Origin: an uncultured Hungatella sp.
GTDB lineage: Bacteria; Bacillota; Clostridia; Lachnospirales; Lachnospiraceae
Length of the DNA: 62,386 nucleotides
Direction of reading: 5' to 3'
Assembly (NCBI GenBank): GCA_947089145.1
Contig: CAMUJH010000024.1
Coordinates: 1 to 62,386, forward strand
Part shown: positions 20,178-31,350 of the stretch, in pieces
Position numbering within the stretch: position 1 is the first letter of the stretch
Layout of the letters: every line of letters begins with the position of its first letter
Notes under the pieces: generated by a model
Told to the model about the DNA's origin: nothing
Databases searched by the model: none
The model's input: only the letters and a program-made list of their open reading frames with translations
Program-made: the position numbers and the translations under genes

Positions 20178-21369
20178 TCATTATTTCCCCATTTATAACC
20201 GTATCAATAATAAAATATAGTTCTTTTGCAAATTCGCTTAAATTTCTATTCCTTTTTTTCATTAACACAGTATTGCTTGCTTTTTTATAAGGATTATTAA
20301 TCATCTCTATCATTTTTTGATTCAGTTTTTCCGGTGAATCGGCCTTAAAATAGCGTATTCTTCTGCTTTTAGGCAACTCTTTATTAATCTCTATGTCAGA
20401 AATTATACACGGAATCTGCATGGCAATTGCATCGTATACCGACCCGCCTCCAGGTCCTCCCTCAAACTGCGTCGGTTGAATTACTGCAATAGAATTTCTC
20501 ATGATACATAATTGATCCCTTTTGGGAATTAACCCTAAAAACAAAATATTATTTTTGCACTCTAATTTCTCTACCTCCTGCAACATTCTTTCAATATATG
20601 TTTTGCTCCTGTAATCTTCCATTTTTCCTGTGCAAACCAGAAAGACATCTTTGTACCCCGCTTGATATACTTTTTCAAATGCATGGAAGGCTAACAGATG
20701 GTTTTTATGCATCCAGAATTGATTCGAGATCAAAAAATATCTTTTAGGAATATTATATTTCTTTTGCATATGATGTATATTATTTTTTCTTTCAATATGC
20801 CATTTCGAGGCTATTGGAAGACATGGCAGCACAAATACTTTCGCCGGATATGGCGAATAGTTTCTCTCTAAACTATTTTTAACATGTTGTGAGTTTACAA
20901 TGATATATTTGAAACTATTTAATATTTTTTTATATTTTTCATCTCTCATTTTAATTACTTTAGGAGAAAAGAAATTTTTCAAATACCTATGCTGTAAGTC
21001 TGCAATATATCCAATAGCTAAAGTATTGCTAAAATTCATCCAGCTATAAACAGGAAAGATAATATCTATTTTATATTTTTCTGTTAAATCAGGAAGACTT
21101 GCTTTATTGTAAAAAATCACTTTACCGTTTCGTAGTTCCCGCTTAATATGAAATCCTAAAATGCATTTTTCAATGAAATCGGACTTTTCTTTTATGCTGC
21201 ATATTACCGGAATAAAGCAATATATGTTGACCCTTCGTTCTCTATACAAGCGCCGATAACCTAAAACCCGCAGCAAAGTCATACAAAAATCAATCCCCCC
21301 CTGCCATCCGCAAAATCCCTCAAAGGAAACCCCTATTCTAAAGTCTTCTTTACTTTCAAAAGTCTCCAC
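20170..21369 (-). CDS. GT4 glycosyltransferase
   Basis: A 399-residue GT-B protein. YFLISNQFWMHKNHLLAFHAF, VFLVCTGKMEDYRS, NILFLGLIPKRDQL and QPTQFEGGPGGGSVYDAIAM match the family 4 donor domain. The start is GTG, supported by AGGGG 7 bp upstream, and overlaps the gene before it by 14 bp; its own stop overlaps the fusion enzyme start by 8 bp. The coding sequence is strongly AT-rich, with many AAT and TTT codons. Mannosyl- or rhamnosyl-type specificity is common in such proteins but is not determinable here. Confidence 0.8.
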   Translation of the reverse strand: METFESKEDFRIGVSFEGFCGWQGGIDFCMTLLRVLGYRRLYRERRVNIYCFIPVICSIKEKSDFIEKCILGFHIKRELRNGKVIFYNKASLPDLTEKYKIDIIFPVYSWMNFSNTLAIGYIADLQHRYLKNFFSPKVIKMRDEKYKKILNSFKYIIVNSQHVKNSLERNYSPYPAKVFVLPCLPIASKWHIERKNNIHHMQKKYNIPKRYFLISNQFWMHKNHLLAFHAFEKVYQAGYKDVFLVCTGKMEDYRSKTYIERMLQEVEKLECKNNILFLGLIPKRDQLCIMRNSIAVIQPTQFEGGPGGGSVYDAIAMQIPCIISDIEINKELPKSRRIRYFKADSPEKLNQKMIEMINNPYKKASNTVLMKKRNRNLSEFAKELYFIIDTVINGEIMNE

Positions 21370-22294
21370 TTCTATTCCCCTCGTATCTTTTCATATATTC
21401 ATGATAGAATTGACATTCTCCAATCTTTTTTATATTCCTTGTCTGCAAGTCAAGTAATTCCATATCTTTAATTAATTTTAATCCCATCATATAGCTTAAA
21501 TGTGTTAAGTTACCATTTTCACCTCTTGATTCTTTATACTGAGGGATTTTATAGGCATCTTCTACCTGAATTTCTTTTAAATTATGCATTATATCATTTC
21601 TTACAAAAAAGGCGTTTGTCCCAGCAGAATTAATACATACAAATTTGTAACCTTTTTTCTCTGCTAAATATACTATGGCCGATAACGATGCTCCATAATA
21701 CAAGTTGCTATAATGCGCATCTGTTCTAAAAAAGTCCTCCTTATATGGAATTACCAATCTTTCATACTTTCCAAAATATGGATTAACTTCACATATTACT
21801 ATTCTTGGCTGAACGCAATTTATAGCATCCCATACATAAAAATCATTTCCATCAATATCAATGCTTAAGAGTCCGATGTCTCCTTTCATACCATGAAATG
21901 TCAGTAAATCATTTATATTCTTTTTCGTGATAAATGCACTTACTGCTCTAATGCCATATTTCCAATATAAGTTGCAGTTCTTTATATAGTTAATATTATC
22001 TTTTGATGAATCCAGTACTAATCCTTCCCAACTATCATGCATCAAAAGAAATTTAGTATTGCTTTCTTCATAGTTCTGAACACCAAATTCTATAAACTTT
22101 TTATTCTCTATAGGTATGTTTTGAATTAAATACTGAATTAAGCCATCCTCATTCCATTGCGAGAACACCTGAAAACCAAATTCTGCAAAATTTTCTATCA
22201 TAAAGTCCTTATTTACGTTTATGATTTTTTTTAAATCCGTTTGTATACAACCAGCTTGAAAACGATCTTGTTCTCTATCGTATGCATATCCCAT
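21356..22294 (-). CDS. FkbM-related SAM-dependent methyltransferase-like protein
   Basis: A 312-residue protein with FSQWNEDGLIQYL, KFIEFGVQNYEESNT and LLSIDIDGNDFYVWDAI. This pattern belongs to a methyltransferase-like family found next to glycosyltransferases; the FIEFGV stretch is the SAM-binding motif I region. The ATG at 22294 has AGGA 8 bp upstream and is preferred over an in-frame TTG two codons earlier. It may methylate a sugar or be a structural relative without activity; I cannot decide. Confidence 0.6.
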   Translation of the reverse strand: MGYAYDREQDRFQAGCIQTDLKKIINVNKDFMIENFAEFGFQVFSQWNEDGLIQYLIQNIPIENKKFIEFGVQNYEESNTKFLLMHDSWEGLVLDSSKDNINYIKNCNLYWKYGIRAVSAFITKKNINDLLTFHGMKGDIGLLSIDIDGNDFYVWDAINCVQPRIVICEVNPYFGKYERLVIPYKEDFFRTDAHYSNLYYGASLSAIVYLAEKKGYKFVCINSAGTNAFFVRNDIMHNLKEIQVEDAYKIPQYKESRGENGNLTHLSYMMGLKLIKDMELLDLQTRNIKKIGECQFYHEYMKRYEGNRSGDF

Positions 22295-22306
22295 ACACAA
22301 ATCCTT

Positions 22307-23473
22307 TCAATTTAAAGTTACTAATTTTTTCCAACCCTTTTCACTAATCGTTCCTATATTTTGTGACAATATATTGTATTTTATCTCTAATTCATAAGCT
22401 ACCCTTTGGCATTCACATTTATCCTGAATCGTAATTCCTATCTTGCAATCAGCATAATTAATAATCCCAGAAGGCCTTATTATCCTTTTACCTGCATAAT
22501 ATCCGCTTTTTGTTTGATCTATAAATGCTTCAATGTAATAATTTTCGCATATATACTTCTCAATGTGCCTGAAATATGTTCCAAGCCCATATATCAAGAT
22601 ATGTTCTTTCCGCAAATCAAGATTGTTTACTGTATATCCACCAAACCATTTCAAAAACAGTTCGCTTGCTTTACTATACATTATCGTTTTCTGTGGTAAG
22701 AAAAAATCTGTTTTTTCTTCGTGTCTTATAGCGACATCGTACTGATTTGTTGTTCCACAGTGTACTCCGGTTCCATCCATTCCTATATTTTGTATATATG
22801 ACTGGTATGGTACAACGTTTAATCCCATACGGTCAATAATGTGTAATGCCCAGTAAACAGCCCAAGAATCATTTTTCCCCAATAGCCTATCATTAAGCAT
22901 TGTCTCTAAATCATTTCCCCACATTGCTAAATAAACGGATTTCCTTTTATCCTGTCTGATTCTATTCAGCACATCATCATCAGGCCAAAAGTTTTCCCAT
23001 CTGTCTTTCCACGTCCCCCACCCCCATGAAGAACCTCTTCCGATAAAATATATATCTGAACAGTCTTTATTTAGCTGAACTGGATAACCATATCCTGTCA
23101 CAGAATATATATTATAATTATTTTCATATTGCTCTAAACATCGTCTCATAAAGCTTACAAAATTAGATGCAGGCACACAATCATCTTCAAGAATAATTAA
23201 TGCATCTTCCCTTTTAAAAACTTCAGAAATTCCTTCCATAATAGACTGAGCAATCCCTTTATTGATAGTAGAAAGACGGTATTCAACCCTACACCAGTCA
23301 ATCTCTCTGATCACTCTTTTTGTCTGCTCCCAGCCTTCCTGATGCTCCTTCCTTTTCAGTCCATCCTGAAAAATATATATATTCCGAATATTTTCATTTT
23401 TCTTTAATCCCTCTAATACTTTGGATAAATGGTTAGGACGATTATATGCAAACACTACTATTCCTATTTTCAT
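22307..23473 (-). CDS. GT-A glycosyltransferase (GT2/GNT-I-like) with C-terminal Rossmann-like module
   Basis: A 388-residue protein. IGIVVFAYNRPNHLSKVL, IFQDGL, LIILEDDCVPA (metal-binding EDD) and GRGSSWGWGTWKDRW are typical of a GT-A group often annotated as 'sugar transferase'. Residues ~285-388 hold the recurrent module (ILIYGLGTYFRHI, AFIDQTKSGYYAG). The motif GYGYP and the W-rich turn suggest acceptor contacts. Start supported by AGAAGAG. Specificity unknown. Confidence 0.72.
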   Translation of the reverse strand: MKIGIVVFAYNRPNHLSKVLEGLKKNENIRNIYIFQDGLKRKEHQEGWEQTKRVIREIDWCRVEYRLSTINKGIAQSIMEGISEVFKREDALIILEDDCVPASNFVSFMRRCLEQYENNYNIYSVTGYGYPVQLNKDCSDIYFIGRGSSWGWGTWKDRWENFWPDDDVLNRIRQDKRKSVYLAMWGNDLETMLNDRLLGKNDSWAVYWALHIIDRMGLNVVPYQSYIQNIGMDGTGVHCGTTNQYDVAIRHEEKTDFFLPQKTIMYSKASELFLKWFGGYTVNNLDLRKEHILIYGLGTYFRHIEKYICENYYIEAFIDQTKSGYYAGKRIIRPSGIINYADCKIGITIQDKCECQRVAYELEIKYNILSQNIGTISEKGWKKLVTLN

Positions 23474-23509
23474 AATAACTCTTCTCTACCTTTTTCTAAT
23501 TTGAATACT

Positions 23510-24400
23510 CTATACCTCTATTTTTTTCCAATCCTTTTCATATAAATAAAATGGAATATTCTTATCAGAATACCATTGTGCAGGTGCTGCAACTACTTTA
23601 TTTTTGTTTTGGCATAACCTCTGTGCCCACCAAGAAAACGTACTATTGGATAGAATAAAATGTTTACATAAGCTCATTTTTATTAAACATTCATTTATAT
23701 TCTTCTCTTCTTCAAATATTACTGGATATTCAAAGGAAAATCCGGTTTTTACGACAGCCATATCATCTGAAAAAATGTGGAAAACCGGGTTTTCCACTAT
23801 ACTTGCAATATATTTCATTGCCCTGTAATAGTAATCCTTTGAGCAGACCTCAAAGAAACTGTTATCTACATAATCTCCTAACCGAATATGCACACACACA
23901 TGCTCTCCAAATTCAACGTTTCTTTTCCACATTTCAAATTGCGGACTCTTCCATTTTAAATCAATTGTTTTTATACATTTTATAAAACGATTACGTTGAA
24001 AAAAACCATATATATAAATATTTTTCTTCTTAAGTAAAGAAGCAGGTATCGGCGCATCCTCAAAGTGACCAACATGTATATAAATGCCCAAACGGTTTAA
24101 AAAAAGTTGAAATATTCTGTCAAAAAACGATATTCTACTATCCTTTATCCCGTACCTTCTATACAGTTGAATAATTGTCTTTGCAACCCGATATTCGACT
24201 ATTTTTTTCTCTGTCTCTGTAGCTATATGCATATTAGGTAACAAGAATCTATGTAATCCACATTTTCTATCTTTTGACGTTTTGCAAATATCCGTGTCAA
24301 TTATAATGCTATCATTGTTTCGTAATTCTGATAATGTCCTAGCCGCTGCATATTGAAATATTTGATTTCCTAATCCTCCCTCCAGAAATAAGACAACCAT
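23510..24400 (-). CDS. GT11 alpha-1,2-fucosyltransferase-like enzyme
   Basis: A 296-residue member of glycosyltransferase family 11. Hallmarks are GGLGNQIFQYAAA at residues 8-20, HIRLGDYV (GDP-fucose-binding HxRxGD) and SNSTFSWWAQ. Bacterial GT11 enzymes move fucose from GDP-fucose to galactose C2, and some move other sugars. No GDP-fucose synthesis genes (gmd, fcl) lie in the window, so the donor would come from elsewhere. AGGAGAAAG precedes the ATG. The result could be a host-like blood-group-type epitope. Confidence 0.85.
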   Translation of the reverse strand: MVVLFLEGGLGNQIFQYAAARTLSELRNNDSIIIDTDICKTSKDRKCGLHRFLLPNMHIATETEKKIVEYRVAKTIIQLYRRYGIKDSRISFFDRIFQLFLNRLGIYIHVGHFEDAPIPASLLKKKNIYIYGFFQRNRFIKCIKTIDLKWKSPQFEMWKRNVEFGEHVCVHIRLGDYVDNSFFEVCSKDYYYRAMKYIASIVENPVFHIFSDDMAVVKTGFSFEYPVIFEEEKNINECLIKMSLCKHFILSNSTFSWWAQRLCQNKNKVVAAPAQWYSDKNIPFYLYEKDWKKIEV

Positions 24401-24434
24401 CCATCTTTCTCCTAACCTTTTTTGAATATTTTAC

Positions 24435-25517
24435 CTATAAAAATTTATCTATATATTTTTGGAAATGAAACAGTCCATAGCATACGGCACGTGCTTCTGA
24501 AAAGTTATCCCAGCTATGGATGTCCGCATTATATTCCATTTCACCATTATATACCGTGGAAAATTCAACAAGTCTCATACCTGGAAATGCCTTTATAATA
24601 GTCTCAGCATAAAAAACTCTGCACCCATTGAACTCCAAATGATCTTGTCCTATAGGCACAGAAATATATACATGCCCCCCCGTCCTTACCTTTTTACCAA
24701 TTGTTTCAAACGCTTTAAAACACGCTTCTGGATCAATAGGATCTCCATATCTGCCTAATCCAAAATGTTCCAAAGAACAAAGTGCGGATATACTCTCGAT
24801 GCTGTTATTTTCAATTTCATTCAGATTAGTCGCATCAGAATTCACAAACTGCAAGCCTTCCACCTGTTTATCTAAAGGGCGCACATCAATCAATGTTACA
24901 TCTTGTCCAAATGACAGCAAATGAGCAATAAATCCATCTATCCTTGATCCAATATCGTAATGCATTTGCACTTTATTTTTATATATTAAGCGCGCCGCCC
25001 ATAAATCCTGCCAAAAATAGTTATGTATGCTCCCTGCATGTGTATATTTATCATAATATAAAAAGTCTTTATATTCTTCTTTATATCGAAATTCTTCCCT
25101 TGTATTCATTAAGTTATATGTTTTCAAGTCTTTCAAAATAAAGTCAAACTCTTCATTATTTTTATATCCTTCTATGTCAATTAGATATTTCTCTGGAATT
25201 ACAGTCCATAATCTTCTTAAATTATCATTCATATTAAAATAACTATTTTGGGGCAAATGCAAAAAACATAGTTTATCATCCGTTATTCCATTCCGTTTTG
25301 CATATGCATATATTTCATCCGCATATAAAGAAGAAGTTACTATAATATAATCCCATGAATACTTTTCTATTTCTTCAATCATAAAAACCGGCTTATCATA
25401 AAAGAAATCCTGACTTTTAACCGACTGCAAAAAACCTATTAGTTCGCCTTTGAATTCCTTTCTGAACTTTAAAAGTTTCTTTGTCTCTTCTCCTATTCCC
25501 CAAATAAAATATTTCAT
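24435..25517 (-). CDS. Rossmann-like module fused to DUF268 methyltransferase-like domain
   Basis: A 360-residue protein. Residues 1-~90 are the recurrent module (YFIWGIGEETKKLL, FLQSVKSQDFF, DYIIVTSSLYADE). The C-terminal half from WQDLWAARLI through HYDIGSRIDGFIAHL, ALCSLEHFGLGRYGDPIDP and GGHVYISVPIG matches DUF268, a class I methyltransferase-like domain. GAGGAAG is upstream of the ATG. A modification of the glycan or its lipid/protein carrier is plausible; no reaction is established. Confidence 0.7.
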   Translation of the reverse strand: MKYFIWGIGEETKKLLKFRKEFKGELIGFLQSVKSQDFFYDKPVFMIEEIEKYSWDYIIVTSSLYADEIYAYAKRNGITDDKLCFLHLPQNSYFNMNDNLRRLWTVIPEKYLIDIEGYKNNEEFDFILKDLKTYNLMNTREEFRYKEEYKDFLYYDKYTHAGSIHNYFWQDLWAARLIYKNKVQMHYDIGSRIDGFIAHLLSFGQDVTLIDVRPLDKQVEGLQFVNSDATNLNEIENNSIESISALCSLEHFGLGRYGDPIDPEACFKAFETIGKKVRTGGHVYISVPIGQDHLEFNGCRVFYAETIIKAFPGMRLVEFSTVYNGEMEYNADIHSWDNFSEARAVCYGLFHFQKYIDKFL

Positions 25518-25540
25518 TTTTTCTTCCTCTTTATTGATAT

Positions 25541-26725
25541 CTATTTATCTGAAAGCATTCCGAATATATTATTTTCAACTGTTCCCGAAAGCACACTATT
25601 TTCAATCGTATTCTGTTTTACTATGTATTTTATATACTCATCTAATGCATCTTTATAATCTTCACTGAGTATATCAGCCATTCCATTATATAATCCATGA
25701 ATCAAACGGTAAGTGGCAGAAATCCTTTTTTGTCTTTCAACAAAATAGTCTTTTGGTATTTTAATACTTTCACAATCAAATTTCCCATTGCTTTCACTAT
25801 ATGTATACAATTTTCTCGATTGAAAAGAAAATAGATATAACATATCATTACTTTTATAATGGCGCAAACAACTATCATTATTCAAAGTATAATTATTATA
25901 TTCTAATATTTCGTTTTTATCGCTATCAATGCCATACACTTTATTATTCCCTGAAAGTAATATGATGATTTTATGGTCAAAATAAATAATTGCGTTAAAG
26001 ACAGGTTCTGATGAACTTGTACAGATATTGTTCTTAATTTCTTTATATTTTCCCAATCTCTCATTCCACCTTACAAATGAGCCGGTTCGTCTAGGCAAAA
26101 GCCAGAATTCCTGTCCGTCGTAACATATATCAGAAAAACTGCATTTTTTACTACCAACCTCTTTAAAAACCTGCTGTTTCTTTTCTAAATCAAAGATAAG
26201 TACAGCATTGCCTACACATAATGGTATATAAATTTTTTTATCTATAAGTAAAGATTTCCGAAAAAAAGATTTCTCATCAAAACGAATAAATCTCTTTATA
26301 TCCTGCATCCAGCTGTCATAATAAGCCATCCTCTCAGTTTCGCAGTCATATTCGACAATCGCTGGATATGTACTAGGAATCATATATATTTTATTCTCAT
26401 ATTTATGAGCTGATAAAAACTTGACATAGTGATTATCTTCACTCTTCTCTTTATAGGATTTAAACGTTATCTTCCTATAATCTTTTGTTTCCAGATTTAT
26501 TTTATACATAGATGTTGCGGTAAATGGTATCAAATACACAATATTATCTTCTAATATTATACTCCCAAAAAGCCTTCCCTTTGGCTCCTCCTCTAATATC
26601 TCGCATATTAATATTGTTTCTTCTGTTGAAAAGTCATAATAGTAAAATCCATTTGATTTAATGTCTGTAAACCACAGTCTATTATGATAAACAATAAAAT
26701 TTTCAAAGATTACTTCTGCATCCAT
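25541..26725 (-). CDS. Cytoplasmic beta-propeller-like protein of unknown function
   Basis: A 394-residue protein with about six or seven repeats of a blade-like pattern: an aromatic/hydrophobic strand, a short turn with D or N, then a second strand (for example NRLWFTDIKSNGFYYYDF, DNIVYLIPFTATSMYKI, NKIYMIPSTYPAIVEYD, KKIYIPLCVGNAVLIFD). No signal peptide or membrane segment. A helical tail of ~60 residues follows the propeller. Such folds usually bind proteins or glycans; in a cluster of transferases it could be a scaffold. The ribosome binding site is weak (GGGATG). Confidence 0.6.
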   Translation of the reverse strand: MDAEVIFENFIVYHNRLWFTDIKSNGFYYYDFSTEETILICEILEEEPKGRLFGSIILEDNIVYLIPFTATSMYKINLETKDYRKITFKSYKEKSEDNHYVKFLSAHKYENKIYMIPSTYPAIVEYDCETERMAYYDSWMQDIKRFIRFDEKSFFRKSLLIDKKIYIPLCVGNAVLIFDLEKKQQVFKEVGSKKCSFSDICYDGQEFWLLPRRTGSFVRWNERLGKYKEIKNNICTSSSEPVFNAIIYFDHKIIILLSGNNKVYGIDSDKNEILEYNNYTLNNDSCLRHYKSNDMLYLFSFQSRKLYTYSESNGKFDCESIKIPKDYFVERQKRISATYRLIHGLYNGMADILSEDYKDALDEYIKYIVKQNTIENSVLSGTVENNIFGMLSDK

Positions 26726-26731
26726 AATTAT

Positions 26732-27811
26732 CTACATCCCTATTTTACCCCAATTTTTTAATTCAATTTCATGACGATCTTCTATATTAGGATAATCTAT
26801 ATTCAATGGGCAATTATATATTGTTGGCTTAAATGTATATTGTTCTCTGTTTGCATATGTGACTTCCAAAAGATTGGGTATCAATATGTCAGCCGCTTTT
26901 CCAACTTCCCCATTGTTATTAGCATGAATCCAGACCACCTGATGTGTTTCGTTTAATTTTTCTAATGCAGATATAACTTTTTTACTATTATTTATATCTG
27001 TCAAATCATGTAATTCGAAAGAAATCTGCAAAAATTGCTTTAATACATCTGAAGATATGGAATTAATAAATTCCCATTCTGATCCCTCAACGTCCATTTT
27101 TAATATAAGATTTTTGTTATGCATATGTCCATTTCTATATAAAATAGTAGGTAGCGACAATAAGTTTTCCTTGATATCATCACTTCCTGAAATACCTACT
27201 TTATTAAAATTTAATCTATGATAATTTTGTGGCAATCTCTCAATTGTATGATCGTAACAATAGACGTTTATACCGCAATCAGCTATCCACCTATCCCACG
27301 AGATTTCCCAGCCTATTCCAAAGCTATACGCAATATAATCATGTCTAAAATCATTAAGCATAATATATCCACCATCATGATTTTTTCCAACTCGGATTAA
27401 TTCATAATCTATAGCCTTTTGAACCTGAAGCAATTCCTTTATACGTTTAAAGTACTCTGGCTTATCCGGGTGTTGACTAATTCTATACGTCTCCAATATG
27501 TTTTTCACTTTAGCCTTTATCTTTTTTTCCCTCAGTTCCTCATACAATCTTCTATTTAATGCATTGTCAGTAGTACATATAATAATTGAGATATCTGATC
27601 TGTCTATTTTCAGAAAACATTTAAGATCTATAATCTGGTTATTATATTTTGCCAGATTATTATCAATTAAAATAAATTCCTTGATTCCATATCTATTAAC
27701 AAGAATATCTTTTGCCTGCAAGCCAACTTTTCCCAGAGGATAAATTGCTATTCTCTGTTTTCTCTCGATTTCTATTCTTATCAAATTATCCAATTTAGAA
27801 TAATAATCCAT
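26732..27811 (-). CDS. Rossmann-like module fused to FkbM-family methyltransferase; first gene of the glycan operon
   Basis: A 359-residue protein. Residues ~18-115 carry the recurrent module (IAIYPLGKVGLQA, ILIDNN, SIIICTTDN). The rest is FkbM-like: YSFGIGWEISWDRWIADCG, CYDHTIERLP, and LILKMDVEGSEWEFI, the typical motif. FkbM enzymes O-methylate sugars or polyketides with SAM. AAGGAG precedes the ATG. As the first gene after the putative promoter at 27893-27922, it is where transcription of the glycan cluster begins. Confidence 0.75.
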   Translation of the reverse strand: MDYYSKLDNLIRIEIERKQRIAIYPLGKVGLQAKDILVNRYGIKEFILIDNNLAKYNNQIIDLKCFLKIDRSDISIIICTTDNALNRRLYEELREKKIKAKVKNILETYRISQHPDKPEYFKRIKELLQVQKAIDYELIRVGKNHDGGYIMLNDFRHDYIAYSFGIGWEISWDRWIADCGINVYCYDHTIERLPQNYHRLNFNKVGISGSDDIKENLLSLPTILYRNGHMHNKNLILKMDVEGSEWEFINSISSDVLKQFLQISFELHDLTDINNSKKVISALEKLNETHQVVWIHANNNGEVGKAADILIPNLLEVTYANREQYTFKPTIYNCPLNIDYPNIEDRHEIELKNWGKIGM

Positions 27812-27892
27812 TGTAAACTCCTTTACTTGAAGATTTTTAATTTAGAATATTAGTTAAAAAAGTTAGCTGTATGGGATCTAATATCTGTCCTA

Positions 27893-27922
27893 AATATAAT
27901 TAGCATATTTTTGTTTTTCCAA
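27893..27922 (-). promoter_or_regulatory. Putative sigma-A promoter of the glycan operon
   Basis: On the minus strand TTGGAA (27917-27922) and TATATT (27893-27898) are 18 bp apart, about 80 bp upstream of the first ATG of the cluster. It is the only good promoter pair I see between the TnpB-like gene and the operon. It would be a natural site for a repressor. Confidence 0.45.
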
Positions 27923-27928
27923 ACTTTT

Positions 27929-28484
27929 CTTCCGGGGCTGCAGGAAGCGCTTTTGTGACAGAGTTATTTGCCTCTGTCATGGTTTTATTAGGCTTAAGGT
28001 ATCTTCTTTTCTGCACTGCCTCACGCCTGCCCCTCCTGTTCCATGATTTTTTATCATACGAATTAGCCGGACATTTCTGTCTGGGAGTTTGGTTTCTCCC
28101 TTCGCTCCGTGTTCGCTTCAAGCAGGCCACGGTCCTGGCATATCGGAAAGCCGCTGAAAGCAGCTTAGGTAATGCCGTTGGGATATCTCCATGAAAAGGC
28201 GCCGCACAAGCTTTAAAGGCTCAAGAGCCTCAAAGACAGATTGGCACTGCCGCCCGCCATGCAGGCATCTCCCGCCCGCCATGATTCCTTTGCTGCATGC
28301 ATCTTTCGGAACATAGTATTCTCTCGGGATACATGCTGGTTGAACAGATGATCTCTCCCATCCTTTCCTCATGGCATTCTATGTTTTACATCCATCCCTG
28401 CGATCCGTATCCGGTAAAACCTTCCTCCAAATACTCCATATCTGCTTTCGCATTTATAGAGCCTGGAATGAGTTCATTCCCAGG
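27929..28484 (-). other. Hairpin-dense noncoding stretch between TnpB-like gene and glycan operon
   Basis: No convincing gene lies in this stretch. It holds many short stems: CTTCC/GGAAG at 27929-27947, TGACAGAG/CTCTGTCA at 27956-27979, GGGAG/CTCCC at 28083-28100, an interrupted AAGC-GCT stem at 28148-28167, GGCTC/GAGCC with flanking CTTT/AAAG at 28211-28235, GTTTTAC/GTAAAAC at 28383-28420 and a 9-bp stem at 28462-28484. A 12-bp direct repeat CCGCCCGCCATG occurs at 28250 and 28272. The stretch may hold the guide RNA of the TnpB-like protein, the decayed right end of its parent transposon, and an operon leader. Confidence 0.45.
28383..28484 (-). ncRNA. Candidate guide RNA (omega-RNA-like) scaffold downstream of TnpB-like gene
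   Basis: TnpB proteins use an omega RNA transcribed from the 3' end of their gene and the sequence just beyond it. Two stems lie 165-270 bp past the stop codon: CCTGGGAATG pairing with CATTCCAGG (one bulge, loop AACT on the minus strand) and GTTTTAC pairing with GTAAAAC. This is the expected place for a scaffold, but no family model was run, and the guide boundary cannot be seen. Confidence 0.3.
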
Positions 28485-28648
28485 GTGTATGAGTCCACCT
28501 TATTTTCTTAATAGCCCCTCAAAATCTCTAAGCCATATTTCAGCGGCCTTTTCATATTCCGATTTTGCGGATCTCCCCATCTTTACGGAAAATGCAAATG
28601 AAAGCCGCCATTCTCCGGCAAAAGATTCCGATAGGCCGTCTTATCTGG

Positions 28649-30001
28649 TCATTTACCTGATTCCTTATACTTCTTCTCAATATTCCTAGCCCCATTAAAG
28701 GCAATGGCGCTCTGAAAGCCACAGCTTTCACAAACAAACCCTTCCTCCAGCCGCTTTCCCTCTGCCCCGCAAACGGAACAGACACTCCCGGTCCCCTTAG
28801 AGTTAATCTCCACCAATTCGATACCGTTTTCCTGACACTTCTGCGCCAGCCGTTTTCTCACATATCCCTGGGGTCCTTCGGCAACTTTCCGGTTTGACAC
28901 TTTATACTTAAGCTTTGCTCTGTCAATAGTAATCGGTTTCGTGATAACGATCTTCCCCGGCTTTTCTGTTTCCAGCATCCGGTTAAGCTCGGCATTAATA
29001 TAGGATTCTATCCTTGCCTGCTCCCGCTTTTTTTGCCGGTCATATTTTTCGATGCCTAGATTATTGGCCTTAATCGCATCTGCCTTTTTTTCATCTCCCA
29101 GAGCAAGGCTCTCCTGGTATCTGGCCTGTACCTTGCGCCGCTGCCTGTTTTTCTCCATCAGCCGATAAGATTTTGCCGCTGACAGCTTTCCTGCCTCTTC
29201 GCCATAAATATTTCCAGATGACAAGGTACACATATGCTCGTAGCCCAAATGGATATACAATGTATTCTGATAATCCTCATGTTTCTGTCCCTTGACCTCC
29301 GTGGGAATAGCAATTACAGCAAATCCGGTTTTGATGCAGATCCGAATCTGCCTGGTGCTGGTTTTCTCATCTTTCAGGGGCAGTTTCACTCTCCTTCTGG
29401 GCACTCTGGATACCAGATAAAGACTGTGATCTTTATAAGAATATCCTGCCGGCGACACACAGAAGCTGTCACTGTTTCCCGCCACAGGTTTCACCTGATA
29501 TCTCCTGGTAAGCCTTCGGAGAAGATTGTTCAGGCGGTTTACATGATCCGCATCCATGCCAAGCCCCGCTGCCTTTTCCGGCATAGGGTACGCTTCTCCC
29601 TTTAAAATGGCTGCGTACACGGCATCCAGCTTCAGAACCGTGCGCAGATACATGCGGTCGTCGCTGCTTAAGTTCTCATTGGCAGTGAGCAACGTCCGAA
29701 TCTTGTTTTTCAGGACCCCCCAAGTGCCTTTGATGTCGCTGACGGCATCTCTCACTGCCAGTTCATAATAAACCGATGGCAGCTTCAGCTGCTCCCGCAG
29801 TCCACAGTGGCGCATCTCTGTCATAATGTCATAAATGGAAGCAAGCCTCCCAAGGCCTCCAGGGCCGGAATACCTTTCATACACATTTCCTTTTACCTTG
29901 GCATAATCCGCAGCAATCCCCTTCAAAAATTTTAAAGTTTCCTGGGGAAGAACCTCTGTATGCTGCCATATGGTTTTGGTAATCACTCTGTTTTTCTCCA
30001 T
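28649..30001 (-). CDS. Nuclease-dead TnpB-family protein (TldR-like candidate)
   Basis: A 450-residue IS200/IS605 OrfB/TnpB relative with an uninterrupted frame. The RuvC-I motif, normally GIDLG, reads YIHLGYEHMCTLSSG (Asp to H251). RuvC-II, normally IVxED, reads IVITKP (Glu to T354). RuvC-III, normally RDVNAARNI, reads IAFNGARNI (Asp to A434). All three catalytic acids are gone, yet the zinc ribbon is intact (C408, C411, C424, C427) and the long basic helical region remains. No TnpA transposase is adjacent. Loss of all catalytic residues in an otherwise intact frame fits the known TldR class of RNA-guided, DNA-binding repressors. It lies 837 bp upstream of, and in line with, the glycan operon. 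The ribosome binding site is weak (AAAAAG). Confidence 0.75.
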   Translation of the reverse strand: MEKNRVITKTIWQHTEVLPQETLKFLKGIAADYAKVKGNVYERYSGPGGLGRLASIYDIMTEMRHCGLREQLKLPSVYYELAVRDAVSDIKGTWGVLKNKIRTLLTANENLSSDDRMYLRTVLKLDAVYAAILKGEAYPMPEKAAGLGMDADHVNRLNNLLRRLTRRYQVKPVAGNSDSFCVSPAGYSYKDHSLYLVSRVPRRRVKLPLKDEKTSTRQIRICIKTGFAVIAIPTEVKGQKHEDYQNTLYIHLGYEHMCTLSSGNIYGEEAGKLSAAKSYRLMEKNRQRRKVQARYQESLALGDEKKADAIKANNLGIEKYDRQKKREQARIESYINAELNRMLETEKPGKIVITKPITIDRAKLKYKVSNRKVAEGPQGYVRKRLAQKCQENGIELVEINSKGTGSVCSVCGAEGKRLEEGFVCESCGFQSAIAFNGARNIEKKYKESGK

Positions 30002-30114
30002 ATCTTTTTCATGTAATTCAGCTATAAAAATACGTTTTTTATCCCGATGAACGGCCTATATGCGACATTTCACGGTATTTCGCCTGTTTGCTGCGGCCTA
30101 GAGAAGCAAAATTA

Positions 30115-30162
30115 AAAATATGTGAAAGATAGCCATTGCCAAAAGGTATAGGTTTTGGCAAT
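30115..30162 (-). promoter_or_regulatory. Promoter with overlapping palindromic operator upstream of TnpB-like gene
   Basis: A perfect 10-bp inverted repeat, ATTGCCAAAA (30135-30144) and TTTTGGCAAT (30153-30162), surrounds the 8-bp centre GGTATAGG. On the minus strand its last bases supply a -35 TTGGCA (30137-30142), with TATTTT (30115-30120) 16 bp downstream, about 115 bp before the TnpB-like start. A binding protein at the palindrome would block this promoter. It could instead be a transposon-end hairpin. Confidence 0.4.
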
Positions 30163-30265
30163 AGAAAATGCTGGGTAAAATTCCATAAGAAAAATGGTTA
30201 AGAATATTGATTTATTGACGATAATATATTAAAATATGTAAGAATTTATAGCTTTGAAAAAGTGA

Positions 30266-30288
30266 CCAAAACCTATACATTTTGGCAA
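30266..30288 (+). promoter_or_regulatory. Second, inverted copy of the TTGCCAAAA palindrome
   Basis: CCAAAA (30266-30271) and TTTTGG (30280-30285) flank CCTATACA and are followed by CAA. Read on the minus strand it repeats the element at 30135-30162 with a few changes. The two copies point towards each other across about 100 bp of very AT-rich DNA. The remaining sequence from 30002 to 30301 shows no gene. Confidence 0.4.
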
Positions 30289-30301
30289 CTTAAATTATAT
30301 G

Positions 30302-30539
30302 CTAAAATGGGGCTGCCACACTATGAATTGTGCGGCAGCCCTTTCCAGTAATGAAATACTCCCGGATCTCGAAATCCTCCGGCATGTTTCCTATGGTTCC
30401 CTATGGCCTTGTCTGCCGCGTCTTCGATTCCCATGGAGTTCTGATTCTCCCGGATCTGGCTTACCAGCCATGCATATTCCTTTAACGGCCTGCAAAAAGA
30501 CAGCAGACTCTCGTTCTCCCCATAGTTGATGTTAACCAT
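30302..30539 (-). pseudogene. Rpn/PD-(D/E)XK nuclease-family transposase, C-terminal fragment with frameshift
   Basis: From 30539 the frame reads MVNINYGENESLLSFCRPLKEY and ADKAIG, a well-known C-terminal stretch of the Lachnospiraceae Rpn-type proteins. It then shifts frame: MPEDFEIREYF continues in the next frame until a stop at 30302-30304. The catalytic N-terminal domain is absent. It is the second remnant of this family in the window, and both lie outside the ends of the glycan operon on the same strand. Confidence 0.65.
30310..30341 (-). terminator. Rho-independent terminator-like hairpin
   Basis: GGGCTGCC and GGCAGCCC form an 8-bp stem continued by CAC/GTG after one mismatch, around TATGAATT. 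On the minus strand CATTTTAG follows. It would end transcripts from the DUF134-NifX gene and isolate the TnpB-like region. Confidence 0.6.
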
Positions 30540-30558
30540 GCGCCCGGCTTAACAGTAA

Positions 30559-31350
30559 TTACTGACATCTGCCCCCATGGCCTGCGCAGCCGTGCCCGTT
30601 TTCCCCGCAGTGATGTCCTTCTCCATGATGATGCCCCTCTCCATGATGATCGCAGCGGACATCAGGATTAAACGAAAGGGTGCCTGCAAGAAGCTCATTC
30701 ACCGCTTCATCTGCGCTTCCAGACACGCCGCCGTAAAGACGGATTCCCGCTTCTGCCAGCGCCATCTGTGCGCCTGCTCCAATCCCCCCGCAGATCAGCG
30801 TATCCACGTTCCATGCAGAAAGCAGCCCTGCCAGCGCCCCATGGCCGCTGCCTTGGGTATCCATTACCTGTGCGCCTGTAACCTTTCCATCCTCAATCTC
30901 ATAAACCTTAAACTGCTCCGTATGTCCAAAATGCTGGAATACGTTTCCATTCTCAAAAGTAACTGCAATCTTCATCATTCTCTCTTCCTTTCTTTTCCTG
31001 GCAGTTTCTGCCGCATATTCTGCCCTGCTGCATGTTTTTCCGCAGCATGTTTTGGCAGAGCCGTCACAAAGCGTATAGTTTCCGCCGGAAATACACAGTG
31101 TTTTTCCATTGACAATACAGTCCGCAATCTTTGTCCGGGCTCTTTCATACATTTCTGTCACCGTAGTGCGGGAAATTCCCATCTGCCTGGCACACTGTTC
31201 ATGAGTTTTTTTTTCATAATCAATCAAACGGACTGCCTCAAACTCATCCACAGTCAGCAGAACCTGCTCCCCGCCTTTCACGCCGCAAGGGGCAAAACTG
31301 TCATACTGCGGTTCGAAACAGATTCTCCGGCACCGGATCGGCCTCGCCAT
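30559..31350 (-). CDS. DUF134-NifX/NifB-type fusion with His/Cys-rich tail
   Basis: A 263-residue fusion. The N-terminal part (MARPIRCRRICFEPQ, then EQCARQMGISRTTVTEMYERARTKIAD) is a DUF134 domain with a helix-turn-helix, and contains several Cys. The central part from MKIAVTFENGNVFQHFGH to ADEAVNELLAG is a dinitrogenase iron-molybdenum-cofactor/NifX-like domain that binds Fe-S or metal clusters. The last ~30 residues repeat HHGEGHH and add Cys, a metal-binding tail. The ATG at 31350 has GGAGGTGG upstream. It probably senses or carries a metal cluster; it is divergent from the Fe-S/thioredoxin operon. Confidence 0.78.
   Translation of the reverse strand: MARPIRCRRICFEPQYDSFAPCGVKGGEQVLLTVDEFEAVRLIDYEKKTHEQCARQMGISRTTVTEMYERARTKIADCIVNGKTLCISGGNYTLCDGSAKTCCGKTCSRAEYAAETARKRKEERMMKIAVTFENGNVFQHFGHTEQFKVYEIEDGKVTGAQVMDTQGSGHGALAGLLSAWNVDTLICGGIGAGAQMALAEAGIRLYGGVSGSADEAVNELLAGTLSFNPDVRCDHHGEGHHHGEGHHCGENGHGCAGHGGRCQ

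Follow-up and report, generated by a model that had tools for sequence, protein, structure and literature searches.

Nuclease-dead TnpB homologues of Lachnospiraceae adjoin a structured RNA whose putative guide matches surface-glycan genes

The window analysed here, a stretch of 62,386 nucleotides (nt) from an uncultured Hungatella sp. (contig CAMUJH010000024.1), encodes a homologue of the RNA-guided nuclease TnpB that lies ahead of a surface-glycan operon and lacks all three RuvC acids. We propose, with a probability of about 0.7, that this protein is a repressor of the TldR type, phase-varied by DNA inversion, which acts in trans on cgt genes; cgt is the name used here for a gene that appears, tentatively and from its sequence, to be glycerophosphotransferase-like and is often the first of these operons. 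Three features by which a TldR is recognised were found together, namely an inactivated RuvC site in a protein with TnpB homology, an adjoining structured RNA, and a guide that matches a host gene linked to the locus. The initial annotation had presented the gene as a TldR-like regulator of surface glycan, possibly directed at the operon promoter; the regulator is upheld by the dead and selected TnpB, the adjoining RNA and a guide matching glycan-operon genes, while the promoter target is not. The coordinates of all features are collected in Table 1.

A conserved TnpB homologue with a dead active site

The frame starts with ATG, contains no internal stop and has the strand and the length of 450 codons first ascribed to it. 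The protein scores 47.8 bits against Pfam Cas12f1-like_TNB (cut-off 26.3), 54 bits against NCBIfam guided_TnpB (as protein P0001), which is under the cut-off of 100, and 17.7 bits against NCBIfam Cas12f2, whose cut-off is 450. In an alignment with ten other Lachnospiraceae TnpBs, His-251 and Thr-354 stand opposite Asp and Glu, respectively, in all ten, and Ala-434 opposite Asp in nine and Asn in one; nine of the ten carry all three acids. An active TnpB nuclease has D/E/D at these RuvC positions and the window protein H/T/A, so that the loss of the three acids described in the initial annotation is borne out. Glu-255, which might conceivably serve in the site, is the sole acid within four residues of any of these positions, and its column reads Q, R, Q and W in the four nearest relatives; a conserved replacement acid completing the site, which had been named as a refuting observation, was not seen. 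The zinc ribbon is intact, as claimed, Cys-408, Cys-411, Cys-424 and Cys-427 being kept in 36 of the 36 sequences that cover them, window included. Comparison with the nearest orthologue (locus L087; L006 is the same contig, and L087 was used) gave a ratio of nonsynonymous to synonymous substitution rates (dN/dS) of 0.092 over 450 codons, which indicates purifying selection and agrees with the predicted value below 1. The window protein is a conserved, selected TnpB with a nuclease-dead active site.

Among 397 Lachnospiraceae genomes a profile found matches in 18, and among 391 genomes of the class in 4, two of them already found; the single window protein as query matched in 6 of 26 genomes of the genus. 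The window's own genome holds four further acid-less relatives, 34–35% identical to the window protein. From 39 profile matches a 37-member alignment was drawn, leaving out the second L076 piece and L008, which is on the same contig as L075. Counting the window, no member has an acid at position 251 (A in 19, S in 13, H in four, Y in one) or at position 354 (P in 22, V in seven, A in five, T in three), and none of the 36 members reaching position 434 has one there (K in 27, A in four, R in four, S in one). The loss of acids seems to belong to the Lachnospiraceae clade, because L235 and L236, matches in the class that come from another family, keep D, E and D at the three positions; the intact L235 passes the NCBIfam TnpB cut-off with 109.8 bits. 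In a tree the 37 members fall on one side of a branch from the ten other TnpBs with support of 100/99, a placement for which the tool warns that long branches meet. Five window-like proteins constitute clade A and the other 32 clade B.

Full-length open frames are present in 35 of the 37 members, L076 having a TGA and L078 being cut by the contig end, and the Lachnospiraceae clade is found ahead of surface-glycan operons. The second refuting observation named beforehand, relatives at random sites with decayed frames, did not occur. Judged from these alignments, the dead TnpB is a family and not a single decayed gene. A nuclease-less TnpB hitch-hiking with glycan loci as a decaying transposon passenger would share its origin in the TnpB family and would account for the fragments or truncated copies seen at several further places (G085, G395:C52, G391:C10, G307:C75, L149, L150 and L152). 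We regard such a passenger as highly improbable in view of the dN/dS, the open full-length frames, the same acid losses throughout the clade and the repeated order with RNA and operon. No TnpA was noticed among the listed locus neighbours or the scanned window neighbours, where no TnpA profile or transposon-end search was made. Phage records for P0001, and phage and plasmid records for P0003, gave no match at an E value of 1e-15.

A structured RNA directly 3′ of the gene

The non-coding stretch directly behind the dead-TnpB gene is conserved, also in clade A. A consensus fold from 20 clade-B copies has 28 pairs, 20 of which show two-sided changes, and covariance model R1, built from these copies without clade A, detects the RNA beside the gene at 36 of the 37 loci, 20 of them used in building and 16 not, the latter including all five of clade A. 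The dead TnpB presumably binds this RNA. When the alignment is fitted to R1, 94.4% of cells are paired versus 34–45% with partners slid, and two-sided change is seen in 22 of the 28 pairs of that model-fitted alignment. The window RNA itself scores 27.8 bits (E 4.8e-5), and a search of its own whole genome at E 0.01 listed only the four clade-B copies and not the window RNA. Searches of Rfam returned no match at gathering for the RNA at four loci, and relaxing E to 5 brought up nothing noteworthy in two stretches. The RNA occurs in 17 of the 397 Lachnospiraceae genomes, all 17 among the 18 with the protein. A GGAGCG-type motif, sought behind the ten other TnpBs, is present in one only.

At L149, L150 and L152 the dead TnpB is truncated or internally deleted and the adjoining RNA still scores 101–120 bits. 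In genome G307, three operons (L146, L147 and L148) have inverted repeats and the RNA, and the DNA retrieved around them contains no dead TnpB; an intact dead TnpB lies elsewhere in that genome, no RNA was found beside it, and the guides of the three operons match poorly the single cgt found in G307. A further RNA, a Clostridiales-1 small RNA (Rfam RF01699, 142 bits), lies about 2.3 kb upstream of the dead-TnpB gene of another locus (L009:5492-5654, minus strand).

Guides and their cgt matches

The 3′ end of the RNA is a guide of 13–14 nt, nearly constant inside a clade and distinct from one clade to the other. Clade B has ATAT-N-CCTTATTTT, the codons for the VYIPYF motif of cgt, and clade A has ATTC-N-TATGATA, the codons for NPYDN of cgt; in both, the variable base N is a codon wobble position. 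Proteins of the two clades are 34–35% identical, and their guides match separate motifs within a single gene family. Being of the same sense as the cgt message, the guide can base-pair with the DNA template strand but not with the message itself. cgt is present in 22 of the 22 genomes searched, each of them with the protein or fragments, out of 23 such genomes (G366 left out).

The window guide matches cgt genes on contigs C7, C34 and C36 of its own genome, with one U-G wobble at C34 and two at C36; the other two of the five own-genome cgt copies, on C33 and C52, fit it poorly. The pattern ATYCRTATGATAA occurs in this genome (4.46 Mb) at seven exact places, comprising the guide, the three cgt genes and, besides these, the start of a dehydrogenase-like frame, an unknown frame and a position between genes, against one place for the backwards control. 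The clade-B pattern, ATATRCCTTAYTWT, occurs at four, of which two are guides and the other two fall on the predicted site of cgt genes; its control gives two, and for this reason the place is informative and the number is not. Across the family, the best 14-nt position on both strands of each same-genome cgt examined was determined for 40 of 42 guides (L074 and L151 left out), which gave 90 guide-gene pairs with a recognisable site after exclusion of 11 without one. The best position is the predicted site in 62 of the 90 pairs, versus 11 of 2700 with shuffled and 0 of 90 with reversed guides; by clade, this holds for 56 of 78 pairs in clade B and 6 of 12 in clade A. Where guide and site differ, the RNA-DNA wobble direction prevails by 125 to 31, beside 132 transversions.

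The initial annotation had suggested a target at 27893-27922, as the promoter of the glycan operon. This is not supported: as a promoter-like site 27893-27922 matches weakly (9 of 12), it is located 3′ of the RNA, and within the window the guide pattern has no exact match other than the guide. Because the window's own cgt is gone, its targets would lie at other loci.

The guide also bears on two alternatives. In the first, the RNA is a cis-acting leader of the glycan operon (an antiterminator or attenuator), with the dead TnpB only an RNA-binding partner and no DNA target. Such a leader would suit the position of the RNA between switch and operon and the three G307 operons noted above, in which repeat and RNA are kept while the retrieved DNA shows no dead TnpB, but it leaves unexplained a 3′ tail made of cgt codons that differ in motif between the clades, and it sits badly both with the retention of RNA and tail at L066, next to CsrA and flagellin, and with the genome-by-genome co-occurrence of RNA and protein; we consider it quite unlikely. 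The second alternative, autogenous feedback, has the complex bind mainly the cgt that lies about 700 nt behind the RNA in the same operon, and dampen that operon instead of shutting out its siblings. A site does exist within the own cgt at many loci, and for 5 of 18 guides the own match beats any other cgt examined; a better match lies elsewhere for 12 of the 18, with one tie, although a sign test on these numbers is not significant and the best of several other genes has an advantage from their number. The window and six further loci lack cgt as first gene, and the guide of the L238 locus fits its own cgt site poorly. Autogenous feedback as the principal mode is, on this balance, rather unlikely, and action in trans remains the preferred reading.

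Other candidate pairings were rejected. Extending the guide to include the scaffold end (17–18 nt, at most three mismatches) gave control-level matches in the own genome apart from the RNAs, the guide proper starting a few bases later. Letters shared between guide and recombinase repeats looked suggestive but do not follow the repeats of other loci (judged by eye). Repeats resembling the tail, in the 130 nt that follow the RNA, are confined to four loci (L146, L148, L057 and L065), and cross-matches of 60-nt tails within a genome are no longer than matches to other genomes.

A putative invertible segment upstream

A pair of inverted repeats upstream of the gene, 96% complementary in the window, encloses a putative invertible promoter segment, which is a likelier promoter than 27893-27922. 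Among 40 loci inspected, such inverted repeats with a spacing of 85–125 nt are present at 17. They enclose homologous segments, which are found in either orientation among paralogues, for instance within a single genome (L147 and L148, 93% identity over 87 nt). In the window's own genome the L054 segment is opposite to those of L055, L056 and the window, with 91% identity to the latter over 66 nt. The best promoter-like site in the window segment (30207-30235, plus strand) faces away from the gene, which suggests an OFF state; the assignment is tentative, because scores are low and an equal-scoring site at 30142-30115, which spans the near repeat arm, faces the gene. Recombinase genes are present in the 1.5 kb ahead of the dead-TnpB gene at 14 of the 37 loci (DNA of that length being available at 34), of the tyrosine type at 13 and of the Resolvase type at one (L086). 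At L054 a second inverted repeat of 27 nt (93%, 62-nt spacer) lies 454–481 and 365–392 nt upstream of the gene, beyond the promoter switch.

Proposed mechanism

According to the reading that we prefer, a TnpB lost its nuclease and would have kept RNA-guided DNA binding. The upstream promoter segment, flipped by a site-specific recombinase, would set whether protein and RNA are made; with the segment facing the gene, one transcript would yield both, and the complex would bind inside the cgt reading frame at sibling glycan loci and block transcription. The predicted targets of the window guide are the cgt genes at three other loci, those on C7, C34 and C36. The sequence evidence carries this scheme as far as the match between guide and cgt; RNA binding, DNA binding and repression are proposed by analogy with known TldRs, and exclusion and the driving of expression by inversion are likewise proposals.

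A more specific form is RNA-guided allelic exclusion, in which the operon flipped ON makes dead TnpB and a guide that silence the cgt of sibling operons. We hold this extension possible, at somewhat less than even odds. Inversion at one locus would then be passed on to others as an RNA signal, and the U or G that guides often carry at codon wobble positions would belong to such a scheme. The possibly phage-borne cassette at L238, with a guide poor on its own cgt, may impose its own surface on the host by the same means.

Activating dead Cas12f relatives are known, and by that precedent the complex might activate or anti-silence cgt operons instead of repressing them. The predicted sites, however, lie hundreds of nt inside the reading frame, and PMC13418256 calls csrA-associated TldRs with targets inside flagellin frames putative repressors; we think activation very unlikely, and repression in trans remains our interpretation.

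Several observations weigh against the proposal. The cgt label is marginal, with 24.0 bits against Pfam Glyphos_transf (cut-off 22.1) for one member (L007), and a match to that family at E 1e-4 was found in 2 of 86 downstream proteins scanned, a subset selected from the 176 listed. The AlphaFold model made from five rows had a predicted local distance difference test (pLDDT) score of 39 and was set aside as unusable. The ON orientation of the segment is guessed, promoter scores being weak, and no recombinase gene was found near the window repeats. The guide-gene pairs are not phylogenetically independent, and clade A alone reaches only its 6 of 12. The excess of guide-site differences in the RNA-DNA wobble direction may partly come from AT-rich guides set against GC-richer genes in non-independent pairs. 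No fully paired 6-nt seed exists in any same-genome cgt examined for 13 of 40 guides (the full set of four from G307, three from G136, and those of L058, L064, L071, L081, L076 and L007). Guides with no cgt in cis are no less conserved than those with one, including that of L066 beside flagellin, and no target-adjacent motif (TAM) could be defined.

The operon and neighbouring genes

Table 1. Positions of the features in the window
Feature	Position	Strand	Basis
Surface-glycan operon: FkbM-like methyltransferase, unknown 394-aa protein, DUF268 protein, glycosyltransferases of families 11 (GT11) and 2 (GT2), unknown 314-aa protein	21356..27811	-	Pfam scans
Broken stub, 5′ end of the window's own cgt, ~97 nt, not one open frame	27928..28024	-	blastn to L006, alignment to L087, frames
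Guide-RNA-like structured RNA directly 3′ of the gene; scaffold ~28064-28187	28047..28187	-	Clade A conservation, covariance model R1
13-nt guide ATTCGTATGATAA, matching NPYDN codons of own-genome cgt genes at C7, C34 and C36	28051..28063	-	Genome pattern search
TldR-like dead TnpB homologue, 450 aa; RuvC positions H251/T354/A434; zinc ribbon C408/C411/C424/C427	28649..30001	-	Profiles, alignment, dN/dS
Inverted repeat arm nearer the gene, 23 nt, 96% complementary	30136..30158	.	Repeat search; extended arm also found
Putative invertible promoter segment	30159..30265	.	Opposite-orientation homologue at L054, promoter scan
Inverted repeat arm farther from the gene	30266..30288	.	Repeat search

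The surface-glycan operon of the initial annotation is real, with its DUF268 protein, its glycosyltransferases of two families and its FkbM-like methyltransferase, the last of which lies just under the Pfam cut-off. Among the 37 loci, 35 have a same-strand downstream gene of at least 130 residues (aa) in the fetched DNA. The first such gene is cgt (one blastp cluster) in 18 of these 35 and, in six, a protein of 175–180 aa with a hydrophobic N-terminal stretch, which replaces cgt as the first gene after the RNA at L058, L059, L062, L064, L072 and L081; one of these proteins, scanned with Pfam, gave no match over the cut-off. The 86 downstream proteins scanned include nucleotide-sugar, epimerase, LicD, cytidylyltransferase and pyruvyltransferase families.

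An intact cgt of the window type lies on contig C33 of the own genome (L221:6478-7833), away from any dead TnpB and beside a TatC-like frame (named by eye). It is 79% identical to the cgt of clade A locus L007, and the homology of its region to the window begins near the guide. Upstream of two own-genome dead-TnpB loci, a remnant in the window (30321-30539) and a gene at L055:12606-13130 are similar by eye; neither has a Pfam match. A viral contig (L238:7075-14177) carries a Resolvase-family recombinase, a dead TnpB, the RNA (98.8 bits), cgt and two further genes, adjoining endolysin-like and tail-fibre-like frames named by eye, and is possibly a prophage-borne surface cassette. Within 27000-31000 of the window the repeat families are two-copy only, in a range beyond which no search for arrays of clustered regularly interspaced short palindromic repeats (CRISPR) was made.

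Relation to known systems

The closest known counterparts in organisation are the csrA-associated TldRs of Oscillibacter and Flavonifractor. PMC13418256 describes these as putative repressors with guides matching flagellin reading frames, with a recombinase and a promoter inversion of about 120 bp upstream and four loci with predicted cross-targeting in one genome, and reports reduced motility with guides down to 6 nt in length. The present family is alike in its host-encoded dead TnpB, downstream guide RNA, in-frame targets, several loci per genome with predicted cross-targeting, and putative upstream promoter inversion. It differs in that the target family is a surface-glycan gene and not flagellin, that the operons are glycan operons, that the guide is known here by sequence, and that the recombinases are tyrosine or, once, Resolvase enzymes where the csrA-associated loci have a hin-type one. 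The window has a putative inversion segment and no recombinase near the gene, and neither csrA nor flagellin was found within 3 kb among the window genes Pfam-scanned on both sides, small unlisted frames not being scanned. L066 (9756-15112), the only locus besides the window scanned for CsrA, carries a tyrosine recombinase, CsrA, flagellin, dead TnpB and the RNA in a row with a glycan-type guide, which ties the two families by neighbourhood alone.

The fliC-TldR of Enterobacter prophages, as presented in PMC13418256, likewise has a dead RuvC, an adjoining guide RNA and a short guide (6 nt reported as enough); it is phage-encoded with a target in a promoter region, whereas the present family is borne by bacterial genomes, where L238 alone may be a prophage copy. 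With the TnpBs of IS200/IS605 and IS607, the window protein shares a homologous C-terminal region, the zinc ribbon and an RNA 3′ of the gene; unlike them, it has lost all three acids and falls under the NCBIfam TnpB cut-off.

Capsule promoter inversion in Bacteroides is similar in placing invertible promoters ahead of several surface-polysaccharide operons. Cross-silencing there uses protein inhibitors, in contrast with the RNA guide proposed here. Searches of the literature found nothing joining TnpB with capsule, phase variation and guide RNA, and nothing joining TldR with capsular polysaccharide. Within the scope of these searches, what is new relative to known TldRs is the target class, a surface-glycan gene, and an RNA with no Rfam entry.

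Significance

The match between guide and codons suggests a way to read the targets of dead TnpBs from sequence. If the proposal is correct, surface glycan would join the short list of processes under natural RNA-guided control of transcription, and promoter inversion would be coupled to a guide RNA as a second layer of surface variation in gut Lachnospiraceae. It would also offer a testable answer to how such bacteria might display one glycan at a time.
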